A stretch of DNA of 39,262 bases from assembly GCA_016930875.1 (NCBI GenBank), contig JAFGFW010000055.1, forward strand, positions 1 through 39,262, read 5' to 3'. The position numbers were made by a program, and so were the translations under genes. Below are positions 19,595 to 26,555 of this stretch, one piece after another. Each line of letters starts with the position of its first letter. Positions within the stretch are counted from its first letter, which is position 1. The notes under the pieces are model-generated. The model made no database searches. It was given only the letters and a program-made list of their open reading frames with translations, and was not told where the DNA came from. This stretch comes from Deltaproteobacteria bacterium. GTDB taxonomy: Bacteria; Desulfobacterota; Desulfobacteria; Desulfobacterales; C00003060.

Positions 19595-19623
19595 TTGACA
19601 ATAGGTTATGCTTTGTTTAGCCT
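19595..19623 (+). promoter_or_regulatory. Promoter of the ilv attenuator and operon
   Basis: Perfect -35 TTGACA (19595-19600), 17-base spacer, then TAGCCT (19618-19623) as a weak -10. Transcription would begin near 19630, about 23 bases before the leader peptide ATG, a layout usual for attenuated amino-acid operons. Confidence 0.6.
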
Positions 19624-19652
19624 ATGAAAAATCTTTGGAATATAGATTAATT

Positions 19653-19754
19653 ATGACACGGATACAGGCCATTACAGGCGTCATTCCAAACGTCATTATC
19701 GTAGTAGGGATTATTCTATCCCTGCTACCGGCTGGAGGCTTGGTAATGGTCTAG
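19653..19754 (+). CDS. Branched-chain amino acid leader peptide of the ilv operon
   Basis: A 33-codon frame (ATG 19653, TAG 19752-19754) encodes a peptide in which 17 residues are Ile (7), Val (6) or Leu (4), including the run VIIVVGIILSLL. Such composition is the mark of the leader peptides of ilvGMEDA and ilvBN in enterobacteria. The ribosome stalls on these codons when the charged tRNAs are scarce. It lies between a promoter and a strong terminator directly upstream of cimA-ilvDBHC, and its codons overlap segment 1 and part of segment 2 of the competing RNA structures. The ribosome binding site is weak (GGAA). The peptide itself probably has no function beyond being translated. Confidence 0.85.
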   Translation: MTRIQAITGVIPNVIIVVGIILSLLPAGGLVMV

Positions 19755-19816
19755 ATTCGCTGACATAGCAATCACAAAAGTCCGTTATCAGGCCGCCTGG
19801 TAACGGACTTTTTTTT
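19692..19816 (+). promoter_or_regulatory. Transcription attenuator: pause hairpin, antiterminator and terminator arms
   Basis: Segment 1 (19692-19711) pairs with segment 2 (19718-19728 and 19742-19750) to give the pause hairpin, whose core is GTAGTAGGGAT with ATCCCTGCTAC. Segment 2 can instead pair through 19734-19749 with 19782-19797, giving 15 of 16 pairs (three G-U), the antiterminator. The latter arm is also the 5' half of the terminator at 19780-19808. A ribosome stalled on the Ile/Val codons over segment 1 frees segment 2 and favours readthrough; one reaching the stop codon covers segment 2 and favours termination. Confidence 0.8.
19780..19816 (+). terminator. Intrinsic terminator of the ilv attenuator
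   Basis: GTCCGTTATCAGG (19780-19792) pairs with CCTGGTAACGGAC (19796-19808), 13 pairs with one T-G and a three-base loop, followed by eight T (19809-19816). It stands 55 bases before the cimA start. Confidence 0.92.
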
Positions 19817-19870
19817 GCTTCGAACATTGATTTTTTCTAAATTAAGGGTCGTTGCATGAGGGGTTGGGCT

Positions 19871-21433
19871 ATGGAATCAATTCTGGTTTATGACACAACA
19901 CTGAGAGACGGTTCGCAGGGCGAGAAGATCAATTTTTCTGCTGAGGACAAAGTCCGAATTGCCCAAAAGCTGGATGATGTGGGTTTGCATTACATCGAGG
20001 GCGGGTGGCCAGGCTCAAATCCGACAGACACACGCTTTTTTGAACTGGCCAAAGGGATTTCTTTCAAACAAGCACGCCTGGCGGCCTTTGGAAGCACGAG
20101 AAGACCTAAAACACCTTGTGAGCAAGACGCGAATCTAAAGGCGCTTGTCGAGTCCGAAACCCCTGTTGTCACCATCTTTGGAAAGAGTTGGGATCTCCAC
20201 GTCAAGAAGGTTATGGCTAATACTATGAAGGAAAATCTGGCCATGATCTACGACACTGTGGCCTTCCTTCGATCTCACGGTCGAGAAGTGATCTATGATG
20301 CCGAACATTTCTTTGACGGTTACAAGAACAATCCGGAATATGCCTCAGAGACGATAGATGCGGCGGTTTCAGCTGGGGCTGATTTTATTGTGCTGTGTGA
20401 CACAAACGGAGGAACACTTCCGTCAGAGATACAGGAAATCATGGAGCGGGCCTGTCCGAAGATTTCAGCCAAGGTCGGCATCCATGCCCACAACGACTGC
20501 GGTCTTGCTGTTGCTAACACGCTGACTGCGGTTCGCCTCGGCTCTGTCATGGTCCAGGGAACTGTGAATGGTTACGGGGAGCGGTGTGGAAATGCGGATT
20601 TGACCTCAGTTATCCCCAACCTCCAACTCAAGATGGGGCTTCCATGTGTAAGAGATGAGAATCTGCGCAGGCTTACGGAGCTTTCGCGCTATGTGAGCGA
20701 AGTGGCGAACATGACCCCCTTTAACGGGCGCCCCTTTGTGGGAGCAAGCGCCTTTGCCCATAAAGGGGGGATCCACGTAAACGCCATCATGAAGACGCCA
20801 AAGGCCTATGAACACATGGAGCCAGAGGCCATCGGAAATGAGCGTCGTGTCCTCATGTCCGATCTATGTGGCAAGAGCAACGTGGATTATAAGGCCCGGG
20901 AACTTGGAGTTGAGCTGGGAGGAGATGGGTTTGACAGCAGGAGAATCGCCACGGAGATAAAGCGATTGGAGCACGAGGGGTATCAGTTTGATGCAGCCGA
21001 AGGATCATTTGAACTTTTGCTGAAAAGGCTTACGGGTCAGTTCGAACCGCTATTTCACCTGGAATCGTTTCGAGTGGCCATTGAAAAGGATAAGGATCTT
21101 CCTTGCAGGGCATATGCTACCATTAAGGTCTGCGTGGGTGATCAACAGGAAATCACTGCGGCAGAAGGAGATGGTCCGGTAAGCGCCCTGGATAATGCCT
21201 TGAGGAAGGCCCTGAATAAATTCTTCCTCGTGGATTTAGAAGAGATGCAGCTTGTTGATTTTAAGGTCAGGGTGATTGAGGGTCGGGACGGAACGTCAGC
21301 CCGCGTAAAGGTCTTCATCGATTCTCGGGACCAGAAGCGCGTGTGGAGCACCATTGGAGTTTCTACAGATATCATTGAGGCAAGTTGGCAGGCCTTGGAG
21401 GATAGTTTTCAGTATAAGCTTTCGCACATTTGA
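19871..21433 (+). CDS. cimA: (R)-citramalate synthase
   Basis: Condenses pyruvate with acetyl-CoA to citramalate, giving 2-oxobutyrate for isoleucine without threonine deaminase. The 520-residue product is a DRE-TIM enzyme: YDTTLRDGSQGEKINFS, HYIEGGWPGSNPTDTRFF, LCDTNGGTLPSEI, IHAHNDCGLAVANTL, VQGTVNGYGERCGNADL, and a C-terminal LeuA-like regulatory domain with GDGPVSALDNALRKAL and GTSARVKVFI. GGWPGSNP and overall form are those of the CimA branch (TIGR00977) rather than isopropylmalate or homocitrate synthase. ATG at 19871 is preferred over 19856 because GAGGGG lies ahead of it. It is the first gene behind the attenuator, consistent with isoleucine control. Confidence 0.94.
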   Translation: MESILVYDTTLRDGSQGEKINFSAEDKVRIAQKLDDVGLHYIEGGWPGSNPTDTRFFELAKGISFKQARLAAFGSTRRPKTPCEQDANLKALVESETPVVTIFGKSWDLHVKKVMANTMKENLAMIYDTVAFLRSHGREVIYDAEHFFDGYKNNPEYASETIDAAVSAGADFIVLCDTNGGTLPSEIQEIMERACPKISAKVGIHAHNDCGLAVANTLTAVRLGSVMVQGTVNGYGERCGNADLTSVIPNLQLKMGLPCVRDENLRRLTELSRYVSEVANMTPFNGRPFVGASAFAHKGGIHVNAIMKTPKAYEHMEPEAIGNERRVLMSDLCGKSNVDYKARELGVELGGDGFDSRRIATEIKRLEHEGYQFDAAEGSFELLLKRLTGQFEPLFHLESFRVAIEKDKDLPCRAYATIKVCVGDQQEITAAEGDGPVSALDNALRKALNKFFLVDLEEMQLVDFKVRVIEGRDGTSARVKVFIDSRDQKRVWSTIGVSTDIIEASWQALEDSFQYKLSHI

Positions 21434-21525: not shown

Positions 21526-23184
21526 ATGAAAAGTGACAGCGTAAAATCGGGCGTGGAGCGATCTCCTCATCGTGCCTTGTTTAAGGCCATGGGGTATACG
21601 GATGAAGAGCTGCGCAGGCCTTTGGTGGGGATTGCAAATTCGGCCAACGATATCATACCCGGCCACGTTGAGCTGGAGCGAATTGTCTCTGCCGTAAAGG
21701 CGGGTATCCGCATGGGGGGCGGCACACCTATGGCTTTTGGTACCATTGGGATTTGCGATGGCATTGCCATGAATCACATTGGGATGAAGTACTCTCTTGC
21801 AAGCCGAGAGCTGATAGCAGACTCCATTGAGGTGATGGCCATTGCTCATGCCTTTGATGCTATGGTGATGGTCACAAACTGTGATAAGATCGTGCCTGGC
21901 ATGCTCATGGCAGCAGCTCGGCTGAATTCACCCGCCATTGTGGTGAGTGGGGGCCCTATGCTGGCCGGCACGCATGACAGGAAGAAGGTAGACCTCGTGA
22001 GTGTATTTGAAGGGGTAGGGGCTGTCAGATCCGGCAAGATGACTGAGGCGGAACTGGCGAATATCGAAGACACCGCATGTCCCACGTGCGGTTCCTGTGC
22101 AGGCATGTTTACGGCCAATTCCATGAATTGCCTGACTGAGGCCATCGGCATGGGACTTCCCGGCAACGGTACCATTCCGGCCGTTATGGCCGCACGCACG
22201 CGTCTGGCCAAAGAGGCAGGGATGAAGATAATGATGCTTCTGAAAGAGAAAATAACCCCTCAAAAAATCATGACTGAAAAGGCATTTGCAAATGCCATGG
22301 CGGTAGATATGGCCCTGGGGTGTTCTACCAACACGGTTCTGCATTTAATGGCCATTGCCGCGGAGACTGGTGTCAGAATCGATCTTGATGCCTTTAATCG
22401 TGTGAGTGAAAAGACAGCCCACCTCTGCAGTCTGAGTCCGGCAGGAAGACATCACATGGAGGATCTGGACCGGGCCGGCGGTGTGGGCGCCGTGATGAAG
22501 GAACTATCACGAAAAGGGCTAATCAATGTAAAATGCCTGACTGTTACAGGCAGATCGGTCAAAGAGAATATCGAAGAGAGCCGAATCATGGATAGAAGTG
22601 TCATTCGTCCCATGGAAAGACCATATCACAGGCATGGTGGTCTTGCAGCGCTTTTCGGCAACATGGCTCCTTCAGGATGTGTGGTAAAGCAATCTGCGGT
22701 GGTGCGACGAATGCTTTGCCATGAGGGACCTGCCCGCGTTTTTGACAGCGAGGAAAAGGCCACCTCTGCCATTATGGCAGGCAGTATTAACAAAGGGGAT
22801 GTGGTGATTATCCGTTATGAGGGGCCCAAAGGCGGACCAGGGATGCGTGAGATGCTTGTGCCCACGTCTGCCATCTCGGGTATGGGCCTTGATGCAGACG
22901 TGGCTTTGATCACTGACGGCAGATTTTCCGGGGGAACCCGTGGGGCCGCCATAGGGCATGTATCACCCGAAGCCATGGAGGGCGGGGCGATTGCCATTGT
23001 TAAAAACGGTGACAGGATCGACATCAATATTCCCAAACGGCGAATTACATTAAAGGTTTCTGACAAGGAGATTGAGGAGAGGCTTTCAAAATGGCGTCCT
23101 CCCAAGCCCAAGATTTCCAAGGGATATATGGCGCGATACGCTCGCGCGGTGTCATCTGGGGGAGAGGGAGCTGTGGTGAGATGA
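21526..23184 (+). CDS. ilvD: Dihydroxy-acid dehydratase
   Basis: Dehydrates dihydroxy-acids to 2-oxoacids, the third common step of Ile and Val synthesis. Its 552 residues fit the shorter bacterial/archaeal form. Iron-sulfur and active-site features: [41 protein letters not shown], and the C-terminal [27 protein letters not shown] is just upstream of the ATG. The 92 bases from cimA hold no terminator. The frame of the following gene is open back into the end of ilvD, but that is only read-through of a stop-free spacer. Confidence 0.97.
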
Positions 23185-23276: not shown

Positions 23277-24965
23277 GTGAAAACACTTACAGGAGCACAG
23301 ATCATCATGGCCGTCCTGAAGGAAGAGGGCGTTAAGACCATCTTTGGTTTCCCGGGCGGCGTTATTATTGACATTTTTGACGAGCTCGCCAAGACGGATA
23401 TACAGCTTATCCTGGTGCGCCACGAACAGGGGGCGGCCCATGCGGCAGACGGCTACGCGCGGGCAAAGAGCAGTGTGGGCGTTTGCCTGGTCACCTCCGG
23501 TCCTGGGGCCACGAACACTGTTAGCGGGCTTGCATCTGCCTATATGGATTCTATTCCGGTAGTTGCGCTCACAGGCCAGGTGCCCACCAAGTTAATCGGA
23601 ACCGATGCCTTCCAGGAAGTCGATATTGTAGGAATCACCCGGCCTTGCACCAAGCACAACTATCTTGTGAAACGTACAGATGACCTTGCCAGAGTACTAA
23701 AAGAGGCCTTTCATGTTGCACGATCAGGACGCCCAGGTCCGGTCTTGGTCGATCTTCCCAAGGATGTGAGTCAAGGCAAGGCAAGATACAAACCCTTGCC
23801 GAAACCCAAGATGCCCTCCTACAATCCCACGTACAAACCCAATGTTAAGCAATTGCGGCGGGCGGTGGAGCTTGTTAAGAGAGCAAAAAGACCGGTTGTT
23901 TTTTCCGGAGGCGGAGTCATCCTTTCAGGGGCATCCAAGGAATTGACCAACTTTGCCAAGAAATTGCACGCTCCTGTCACAGCCTCTCTGATGGGTCTTG
24001 GCGGTTTTCCGGGCACCGATCCTCTCTGGCTGGGAATGCTGGGTATGCACGGCACATACCGCGCCAACATGGCGATCGAGGGATGCGACCTCTTAATCGG
24101 CATTGGTGTGCGCTTTGATGACAGGGTGACCGGCAAGGTTGAAGCGTTTGCACCAAATGCAAAGATCATCCATGTTGATATCGACCCTACTTCTATCAGC
24201 AAGAATATCCCTGTTACGGTCCCAATCGTTGGTGATTGCAGGGCCTCCCTAAGGGAGATTAACGGCCTCCTTGATGATGAAAAGGTGAGGTTTTCCAAGA
24301 AAAGCCGCAAACCCTGGCTTGACCAGATAGAAAAATGGAAAAATACCCAGCCATTAAGATATGAACAGGGAGATGCAATAAAACCCCAGTGTGTAGTTGA
24401 AAAGCTCTACGAACTGACACAGGGCAAAGCCATCATTACCACTGAGGTGGGACAGAACCAAATGTGGGCGGCTCAGTATTACCACTTTGATAGCCCAAAT
24501 TGTTTCATTACCTCTGGCGGACTTGGGTGTATGGGTTTTGGTTTGCCTGCTGCCATTGGGGCGCAGGCGGCTTGTCCTGATAGGCTCGTGGTAGACGTGG
24601 CTGGAGACGGGAGTATTCAGATGAATATCCAGGAGCTGGCCACGGCCGTGCAATACAACTTGCCGGTGAAGGTGGTTATCTTAAATAACAGGTATCTTGG
24701 TATGGTACGGCAGTGGCAGGAACTCTTTTACAAAAAGCGCTACACGGCTACAGACATGGAATGCGCCCCTGATTTTGCGAAGCTTGCCGAGGCCTATGGG
24801 GCCTTAGGCCTGAAGGCCACGAAGCCCGAAGAGGTTGTTTCCGTACTCAAGCAAGGGCTCAAGAGCCCGGGTCCTGCCATAATGGACTTTTGGGTGGCTC
24901 GTGAAGAAGGTGTGTACCCCATGGTCCCTGCAGGGGCCGCTTTAAGTGAAATGCTTCTAGTCTAA
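23277..24965 (+). CDS. ilvB: Acetohydroxyacid synthase, catalytic subunit
   Basis: TPP- and FAD-dependent enzyme that makes acetolactate from pyruvate, or acetohydroxybutyrate from pyruvate and 2-oxobutyrate. 562 residues. TPP-activating Glu50 lies in [17 protein letters not shown]; further blocks are [38 protein letters not shown], the TPP-binding [17 protein letters not shown] with [17 protein letters not shown]. The start is GTG at 23277 with AGGAGGA six bases upstream; an ATG at 23091 in the same frame would overlap ilvD by 94 bases and add unrelated residues. It is followed within 15 bases by its regulatory subunit. Confidence 0.97.
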
Positions 24966-24979
24966 AACGGAGATTACTT

Positions 24980-25462
24980 ATGCAGAAACATACGATATCG
25001 CTGTTGGTGGACAATGAGCCGGGGGTGCTTTCCCGGGTGGCAGGCCTGTTTAGTGGCCGCGGTTTCAACATAGAGAGCCTGTGCGTGGCAGAGACCCTTG
25101 ACCCCCTGGTTTCCCGCATGACACTCGTAACGCGGGGAGACGATGCCGTTGCAGAACAGATTATGAAACAGCTCAACAAGCTCATTAACGTCATGAAGGT
25201 CCATGACCTGACCGGAACGGAATATGTGGAGCGTGAAATGGCCCTGGTCAAAGTCAAGACCAAGGCAGATTCCAGGGCGGAACTCTTGAGGATTGTTGAT
25301 ATTTTCAGGTGCAAAGTCGTTGACGTGAGTCCCACGCACTACACGCTCGAAGTGACCGGTACGGCCGAGAAGCTTGCAGCCATCTTGAGCCTTCTAAAGC
25401 CCATGGGGGTTAAGGAGATTGCCCGCACAGGGGCGATTGCGCTGGCGAGGGAGAAAAAATAA
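24980..25462 (+). CDS. ilvH: Acetohydroxyacid synthase, regulatory (small) subunit
   Basis: The 160-residue protein has an N-terminal ACT domain (HTISLLVDNEPGVLSRVAGL then FSGRGFNIESLCVAET) and the C-terminal domain typical of IlvH/IlvN (VSPTHYTLEVTGTAEKLAAI). It activates IlvB and gives valine feedback inhibition. It is translationally close to ilvB (14-base gap). Length and domain layout match the 160-165 residues of IlvH rather than the short IlvN or IlvM. Confidence 0.96.
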   Translation: MQKHTISLLVDNEPGVLSRVAGLFSGRGFNIESLCVAETLDPLVSRMTLVTRGDDAVAEQIMKQLNKLINVMKVHDLTGTEYVEREMALVKVKTKADSRAELLRIVDIFRCKVVDVSPTHYTLEVTGTAEKLAAILSLLKPMGVKEIARTGAIALAREKK

Positions 25463-25499: not shown

Positions 25500-26555
25500 A
25501 TGGCAAAGATCAATTTTGGTGGTGTCTGGGAGGACGTGGTGACCTCGGAAGAATTTTCTTTGGAGAAGGCGAGAGAGGTCTTGGCTGATGAGACTGTGGC
25601 AGTGCTGGGCTATGGTGTGCAGGGTCCTGCCCAGGCGTTGAACATGAAAGACAATGGGATTTCGGTCATCGTGGGCCAGCGCGAGGGTGGCAAGTCCTGG
25701 GAAAAGGCTGTCCACGACGGTTTTGTGCCGGGCGAGACCCTTTTTTCGTTGGAAGAGGCGGCCGAGCGGGCTACCATAGTCCAGTATCTCATATCTGATG
25801 CCGGCCAGATGGCAGCTTGGCCGAGGCTGAAACCGTTGCTAAAAGAGGGAGATGCCCTCTATTTTTCCCACGGTTTTTCCATTGTTTACAGCGATCAGAC
25901 CGGAGTGGTCCCCCCGAATAACATTGACGTAATTCTGGTTGCTCCAAAGGGTTCTGGAAGAAATGTGCGATTGAATTTCCTGGACGGAAGCGGCATCAAC
26001 GGAAGTTACGCGGTTTATCAGGATTTTACTGGCCGGGCAAAGGAGAAAGCCATTGCATTAGGCATAGCCATCGGGTCCGGATACCTGTTTCCGACGACCT
26101 TCAAAAATGAGGTGTACAGTGACCTGACCGGAGAGCGCGGGGTTCTTATGGGCTGCCTGGAGGGCGTGTTTGAGGCCCAGTACAGTATATTGCGCAAACA
26201 CGGACACAGCCCCAGCGAGGCATTCAACGAAACGGTAGAAGAGTTGACCCAGAGCCTGATTCGCCTTGTGGCTGAAAACGGCATGGACTGGATGTATTAC
26301 AACTGCAGCACAACGGCCCAGAGAGGAGCGCTGGATTGGAGGCACAGATTCCGCAATGCGGTCACACCTGTCTTTGAGGAGCTTTACCAGAGTGTCGTTT
26401 CGGGACAAGAGACCAAGCTCGTGCTTGAAGCCAACAGTGCGCCGGATTATAGTGAAAGGCTCGCAGAAGAGCTGGAAGAGATGAAAAACTCCGAGATGTG
26501 GCAAGCTGGAGCTGCCGTTCGTGGCCTGAGACCGGAAAACAGGAAAAAGCCATAG
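25500..26555 (+). CDS. ilvC: Ketol-acid reductoisomerase (Bacteroidota-like subtype)
   Basis: Isomerises and reduces acetohydroxyacids with NAD(P)H, second step of Ile/Val synthesis. The 351-residue product has a Rossmann motif LGYGVQGPAQALN, FSHGF, VAPKGSGRNVR, and the metal/substrate region TTFKNEVYSDLTGERG. Its sequence differs from the usual 330-residue bacterial class I enzyme (GYGSQGHAHALN, ETETDLFGEQ) and by memory resembles the Bacteroidota form, including EAFNETVEE, NGMDWMY and a C-terminal AVRSLRPEN-like end. AAGGAGA precedes ATG 25500. It is the last gene of the ilv operon; no clear terminator follows. Confidence 0.95.
   Translation: MAKINFGGVWEDVVTSEEFSLEKAREVLADETVAVLGYGVQGPAQALNMKDNGISVIVGQREGGKSWEKAVHDGFVPGETLFSLEEAAERATIVQYLISDAGQMAAWPRLKPLLKEGDALYFSHGFSIVYSDQTGVVPPNNIDVILVAPKGSGRNVRLNFLDGSGINGSYAVYQDFTGRAKEKAIALGIAIGSGYLFPTTFKNEVYSDLTGERGVLMGCLEGVFEAQYSILRKHGHSPSEAFNETVEELTQSLIRLVAENGMDWMYYNCSTTAQRGALDWRHRFRNAVTPVFEELYQSVVSGQETKLVLEANSAPDYSERLAEELEEMKNSEMWQAGAAVRGLRPENRKKP

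Follow-up and report, generated by a model that had tools for sequence, protein, structure and literature searches.

The window, a 39,262-nucleotide stretch from a Deltaproteobacteria bacterium, carries between positions 19595 and 19871, directly upstream of cimA-ilvD-ilvB-ilvH-ilvC, a leader that very probably is a classical ribosome-mediated transcription attenuator, predicted to sense the charged tRNAs for Ile, Val, and Leu and to control these genes. Ribosome-mediated attenuation is a textbook mechanism that has been best studied in enterobacteria. The leader elements were read directly from the letters and comprise a short ORF rich in codons for the pathway's products, an intrinsic terminator between that ORF and the first gene, and a mutually exclusive antiterminator that shares a strand with the terminator. 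By geometry and by a folding calculation, a ribosome that has reached the stop codon covers the antiterminator strand, whereas one at the control codons leaves it exposed. A preliminary description had named these elements, and each was found at, or a few bases from, the position it had been given.

Promoter and leader ORF

The putative promoter (19595..19623, forward strand, as are all window features below) consists of TTGACA at 19595-19600, a 17-nt spacer, and TAGCCT at 19618-19623. The TTGACA is present as previously described; the -10 hexamer is poor, agreeing with the consensus at 3/6 positions, which is why a generic promoter scan left this promoter unlisted. Among 44 distinct leaders, 41 have a TTGACA upstream, in most cases at about -147 relative to GGTAATGG.

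The leader ORF (19653..19754) agrees with the 33-codon peptide with 17 Ile/Val/Leu residues proposed earlier; its translation is MTRIQAITGVIPNVIIVVGIILSLLPAGGLVMV, its stop is the TAG at 19752-19754, and orthologous frames occur in relatives. No good or obvious Shine-Dalgarno sequence is present upstream of it. A frame this rich in Ile/Val/Leu is rare by chance, since an ORF with at least 10 such residues in 12 arose in 3 of 3,000 first-order Markov sequences of the same composition. The 68 distinct leader peptides that were collected average about 51% Ile/Leu/Val. Codon use in the window's leader and those of relatives departs from that of the window genes, with GTA serving 45% of Val (vs 13%) and CTA 15% of Leu (vs 5%), an over-use that could be caused by either sensitivity or RNA pairing.

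The strong hydrophobicity of the peptide and the conservation of its C-terminus, LLPAGGLVM, within the genus would be expected if the ORF encoded a small hydrophobic membrane protein with its own function, followed by an ordinary terminator. We regard this as very improbable. Order-wide, Ile/Val/Leu richness alone is kept and not the peptide sequence, the peptide has no Pfam or NCBIfam match, and the genus-level C-terminal motif coincides with the antiterminator strand. Moreover, a one-base loss in one relative (L015/L042) puts the C-terminal part into another frame yet spares the RNA elements, and the competing helices described below covary.

Competing RNA helices

The intrinsic terminator (3:4 helix, 19776..19816) has a core of 19780-19792 paired with 19796-19808, followed by eight T at 19809-19816, in agreement with the 13-bp stem and T tract of the preliminary description; the stem reaches 17 bp when flanking A-U pairs are counted. 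Its free energy is -29 kcal/mol over the surrounding 61-nt stretch (z -8.6), and the complete leader folds far better than shuffled sequences (z -7.1). Region 3 is common to the terminator and the antiterminator. The antiterminator pairing of 15 of 16 positions, as claimed earlier, was reproduced with G-U counted between region 2, GGAGGCTTGGTAATGG, and CCGTTATCAGGCCGCC, and 13 of these pairs are also found in the folding calculation. Region 2, whose antiterminator 5' strand GGCTTGGTAATGG occupies 19737..19749, overlaps codons 29-33 of the leader ORF.

Over 44 leaders, 97.7% of the alignment cells are paired in the 2:3 helix and 96.9% in the 3:4 helix. For either helix, none of 500 shuffles reached the observed covariation score, and sliding the partner strand destroyed the signal. 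The motif used for collecting leaders fixes part of the columns of both helices, leaving free of the motif only columns 114-117 paired to 176-177 and the terminator's outer pairs; the telling pairs are therefore antiterminator column 115-176 (GC 18, CG 16, AU 2) and terminator column 165-201 (UA 21, AU 14, GC 6). The covariance check proposed with the preliminary description thus finds compensatory changes in both helices at positions outside the search pattern. In one relative (L012, 1291-1463), part of region 3 is duplicated within the terminator (CCGTTATCAGGCCTCGTTATCAGG), which offers two possible 5' strands.

A pause hairpin between regions 1 and 2 is predicted by the folding calculation, with its 5' strand CCATTACA at 19669..19676, and the pairing is conserved in the leaders: 81% of cells are paired, vs 21-49% when the strands are slid. 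No covariation above shuffles was detected for the 1:2 helix. The pairing is stronger than synonymous recoding predicts (mean z -2.25, with p<0.05 in 43 of 68 leaders, which are related and not independent). The apex of the pause hairpin is an 11-bp hairpin within the leader ORF (19701..19728, pairing 19701-19711 with 19718-19728), in which L015/L042 shows one G-C to C-G change that keeps the pairing, a change seen at the genus level only. At equilibrium, with no ribosome and region 3 just made, 2:3 forms at 0.90 and 1:2 at 0.08. Because 2:3 outcompetes it, the 1:2 hairpin could work only kinetically, by forming first; and since it loses once region 3 exists, low basal expression without translation would not be guaranteed.

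Predicted response to a stalled ribosome

In the model, the ribosome was assumed to cover 15 nt to either side of the P site at the moment when region 3 has been completed. For an A site at any of codons 1-25, the probability of 2:3 is 0.92-1.0 and the antiterminator is free in the calculation; with the A site anywhere from codon 28 to the stop, this probability is 0 and the terminator alone can form. The permissive range holds most of the 17 Ile/Val/Leu codons, the exceptions being positions 30, 31, and 33. As modeled, this outcome is the logic of classical attenuation, so that the RNA-folding check suggested for the region also yields the classical result.

In the mechanism that we propose, RNA polymerase would initiate near 19630 and a ribosome would trail it on the 33-codon leader. 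When Ile, Val, and Leu are plentiful, the ribosome would reach the stop codon at 19752 and cover region 2, whereupon region 3 would pair with region 4 and transcription would end at the T tract. When any of the three runs short, the ribosome would stall at codons 4-25 and leave region 2 free; region 2 would then pair with region 3, block the terminator, and allow the cimA operon to be read. The transcription start, the stalling, the read-through, and the transcription of the genes as an operon are the steps of this scheme that we infer.

Conservation within the genus

In genus relatives with upstream sequence, the leader lies directly before cimA with the same TTGACA element and terminator, except in two species, and the leader peptides are orthologous and end in PAGGLVM. 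Every leader element is as intact in the window's nearest relative (cimA 98% identical) as in the window. In L015/L042, the base that shifts the C-terminal frame is lost from the internal hairpin, with the RNA strands still present and the run of Ile/Val preserved. The two exceptions are sister species (G005 and G014, loci L004/L005, minus strand) with no leader before cimA and only a TTGACA close to the gene, and they are natural losses of the leader.

These losses show that the leader is dispensable and, together with the weak -10 element, would suit a relic that is intact in sequence but non-regulating, with the operon read mainly from another promoter. Such decay is very unlikely given that neither the window nor its nearest relative shows damage to any element and that the helices are constrained across the order.

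Conservation across the order and phylum

A search of 243 order genomes for a two-part exact motif, GGTAATGG-N18-48-CCGTTAYCAG, hit 41 of them, vs 3 for the reversed control. A stricter three-part pattern retrieved 34 stretches from 84,980 species genomes, under record names that include Desulfobacterales, Desulfobacteria, Desulfobacteraceae, Desulfoluna, Desulfobotulus, and Desulfonema, the others being merely Deltaproteobacteria, Proteobacteria, or Thermodesulfobacteriota. One match of the motif (in L031) was rejected as a chance occurrence with neither a terminator nor a branched-chain amino acid (BCAA) gene.

Conservation in relatives had been named at the outset as the point on which the reading could fall, and the reading withstood this test: a covariance model spanning the antiterminator strand to the terminator (R1) detected the leader in 55 of 60 relatives and in 38 of the 39 order genera sampled. 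The window's own genome yields a single match. In a phylum sample, R1 matched 26 of 297 genomes, of which roughly 16 do not belong to the order. R1 matches on the strand opposite leaders were discarded as reflections of the palindromic terminator and represent no second leader. Four genomes outside the order (G430, G286, G497, and G455) have two such leaders each; in G430 one of the pair precedes cimA and the other ilvB.

Among the 44 distinct exact-motif leaders, all 42 with downstream sequence precede a BCAA gene, namely cimA in 15, ilvD in 20, and ilvB in 7. The preliminary description placed control at cimA; this stands for the window, and across the order ilvD or ilvB is the commoner first gene. 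Placement before cimA characterizes the window's genus, a few other order lineages, and most phylum matches outside the order, where R1 matches with a recognized gene lie mostly before cimA and in a few cases before ilvB.

What was observed directly is the set of sequence elements, the extent to which they are conserved, the compensatory changes, and the location ahead of BCAA genes. Only a ribosome-mediated attenuator accounts for all of the following: a promoter at conserved spacing, a peptide that varies in sequence but stays rich in Ile/Val/Leu, a stop codon that falls within the antiterminator strand or just beyond it, compensatory changes in the two competing helices alike, and a position that is always before BCAA genes. 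We lean, by a modest degree, toward one ancestral BCAA attenuator, absent from Rfam, that much of the phylum would have retained. Operon rearrangements may have shifted its core (GGTAATGG ... CCGTTAYCAG ... terminator) among cimA, ilvD, and ilvB, with losses in single species, and one sensor would thereby guard different pathway entry points in different lineages.

Comparison with known leaders

Searches against Rfam 15 returned nothing relevant in the window or its relatives at the gathering threshold, nor in a relaxed-threshold search; the best leader family was Trp_leader, with 16.6 bits against a threshold of 41. RNAs that bind a metabolite or tRNA precede BCAA genes in other bacteria (PMC10272879), and a leader of that kind, either a riboswitch such as the ppGpp class found before some ilvB genes or a T-box, could control the terminator directly. 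We consider this highly improbable here, given the Rfam result and a conserved RNA core that consists of the alternative helices alone, the remainder being a codon-rich frame of variable sequence.

The leader resembles that of enterobacterial ilvGMEDA (E. coli ilvL) in its Ile/Val/Leu-rich peptide of about 32 residues, its antiterminator/terminator alternatives, its T-rich intrinsic terminator, and the shared Ile/Val/Leu genes under control. It differs in that R1 has no match in the E. coli ilvL region (NC_000913.3, 3949800-3951200), that the first gene here encodes citramalate synthase, and that this genome holds no TIGR01127 threonine deaminase above cut-off. The earlier statement that the structures compete exactly as in enterobacterial ilv leaders consequently holds for the logic but not for the sequence.

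Classical attenuators of ilv genes are well established for enterobacteria and have been proposed or tested in Actinobacteria (PMC1262725, PMC10272879, PMC11857589), and the actinobacterial ilvB leaders and the Corynebacterium ilvB-II motif share with ours a short BCAA-rich upstream ORF, a terminator, and a proposed attenuation of ilvBNC, while differing in lineage, RNA sequence, and first gene. The similar-looking leader of Streptomyces coelicolor ilvB is reported to be unresponsive to changed regulatory codons (PMC1262725), so attenuator-like anatomy does not always mean classical attenuation. The ilvB-OMG and Leptospira ilvB motifs are likewise recently found BCAA upstream-ORF leaders outside Gammaproteobacteria (PMC10272879); no Rfam family matches the window leader.

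The literature searched gave no account of such a leader for this phylum; the surveys of Vitreschak (2004) and Lopatovskaya (2010), the likeliest places for a mention, lay outside the search, and an earlier description is thus possible. As judged from sequence, the leader appears to be a new, order-wide, and partly phylum-wide example of classical attenuation, unusually well conserved and of predicted function. With it, a textbook mechanism gains an almost order-wide family in sulfate-reducer lineages, which R1 now allows to be annotated, and the large natural alignment, with at least two natural losses, makes the rules of attenuator sensitivity testable by comparison.

Downstream genes and pathway

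The first gene, cimA (19871..21433), encodes citramalate synthase (TIGR00977, 742 bits vs a cut-off of 450); its start is most likely at 19871, where relatives align, rather than at 19856. It is followed by ilvD (dihydroxy-acid dehydratase, 21526..23184), ilvB (acetolactate synthase large subunit, 23277..24965), and ilvH (acetolactate synthase small subunit, 24980..25462), all assigned by curated families, and by ilvC (ketol-acid reductoisomerase, 25572..26555; TIGR00465, 323 bits vs a cut-off of 226). The starts of ilvB and ilvC were estimated from profile matches.

Because no threonine deaminase of family TIGR01127 passed the cut-off in the window's genome, a result that covers one family in one 97% complete draft assembly, isoleucine would seem to be made by way of citramalate, with citramalate synthase as the apparent committed step here. 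The predicted Ile/Val/Leu sensing is thereby placed before citramalate synthase, and control at this point would act on the first step of the citramalate route. Elsewhere in the same genome, leuA lies downstream of a Leu-rich leader ORF (MKTNYVHLIPLELLLLLGLLREESAGGS; L155, 404-490, minus strand; G000:C53:5903-5989) and two tandem terminators, which suggests that leucine synthesis may have an attenuator of its own.
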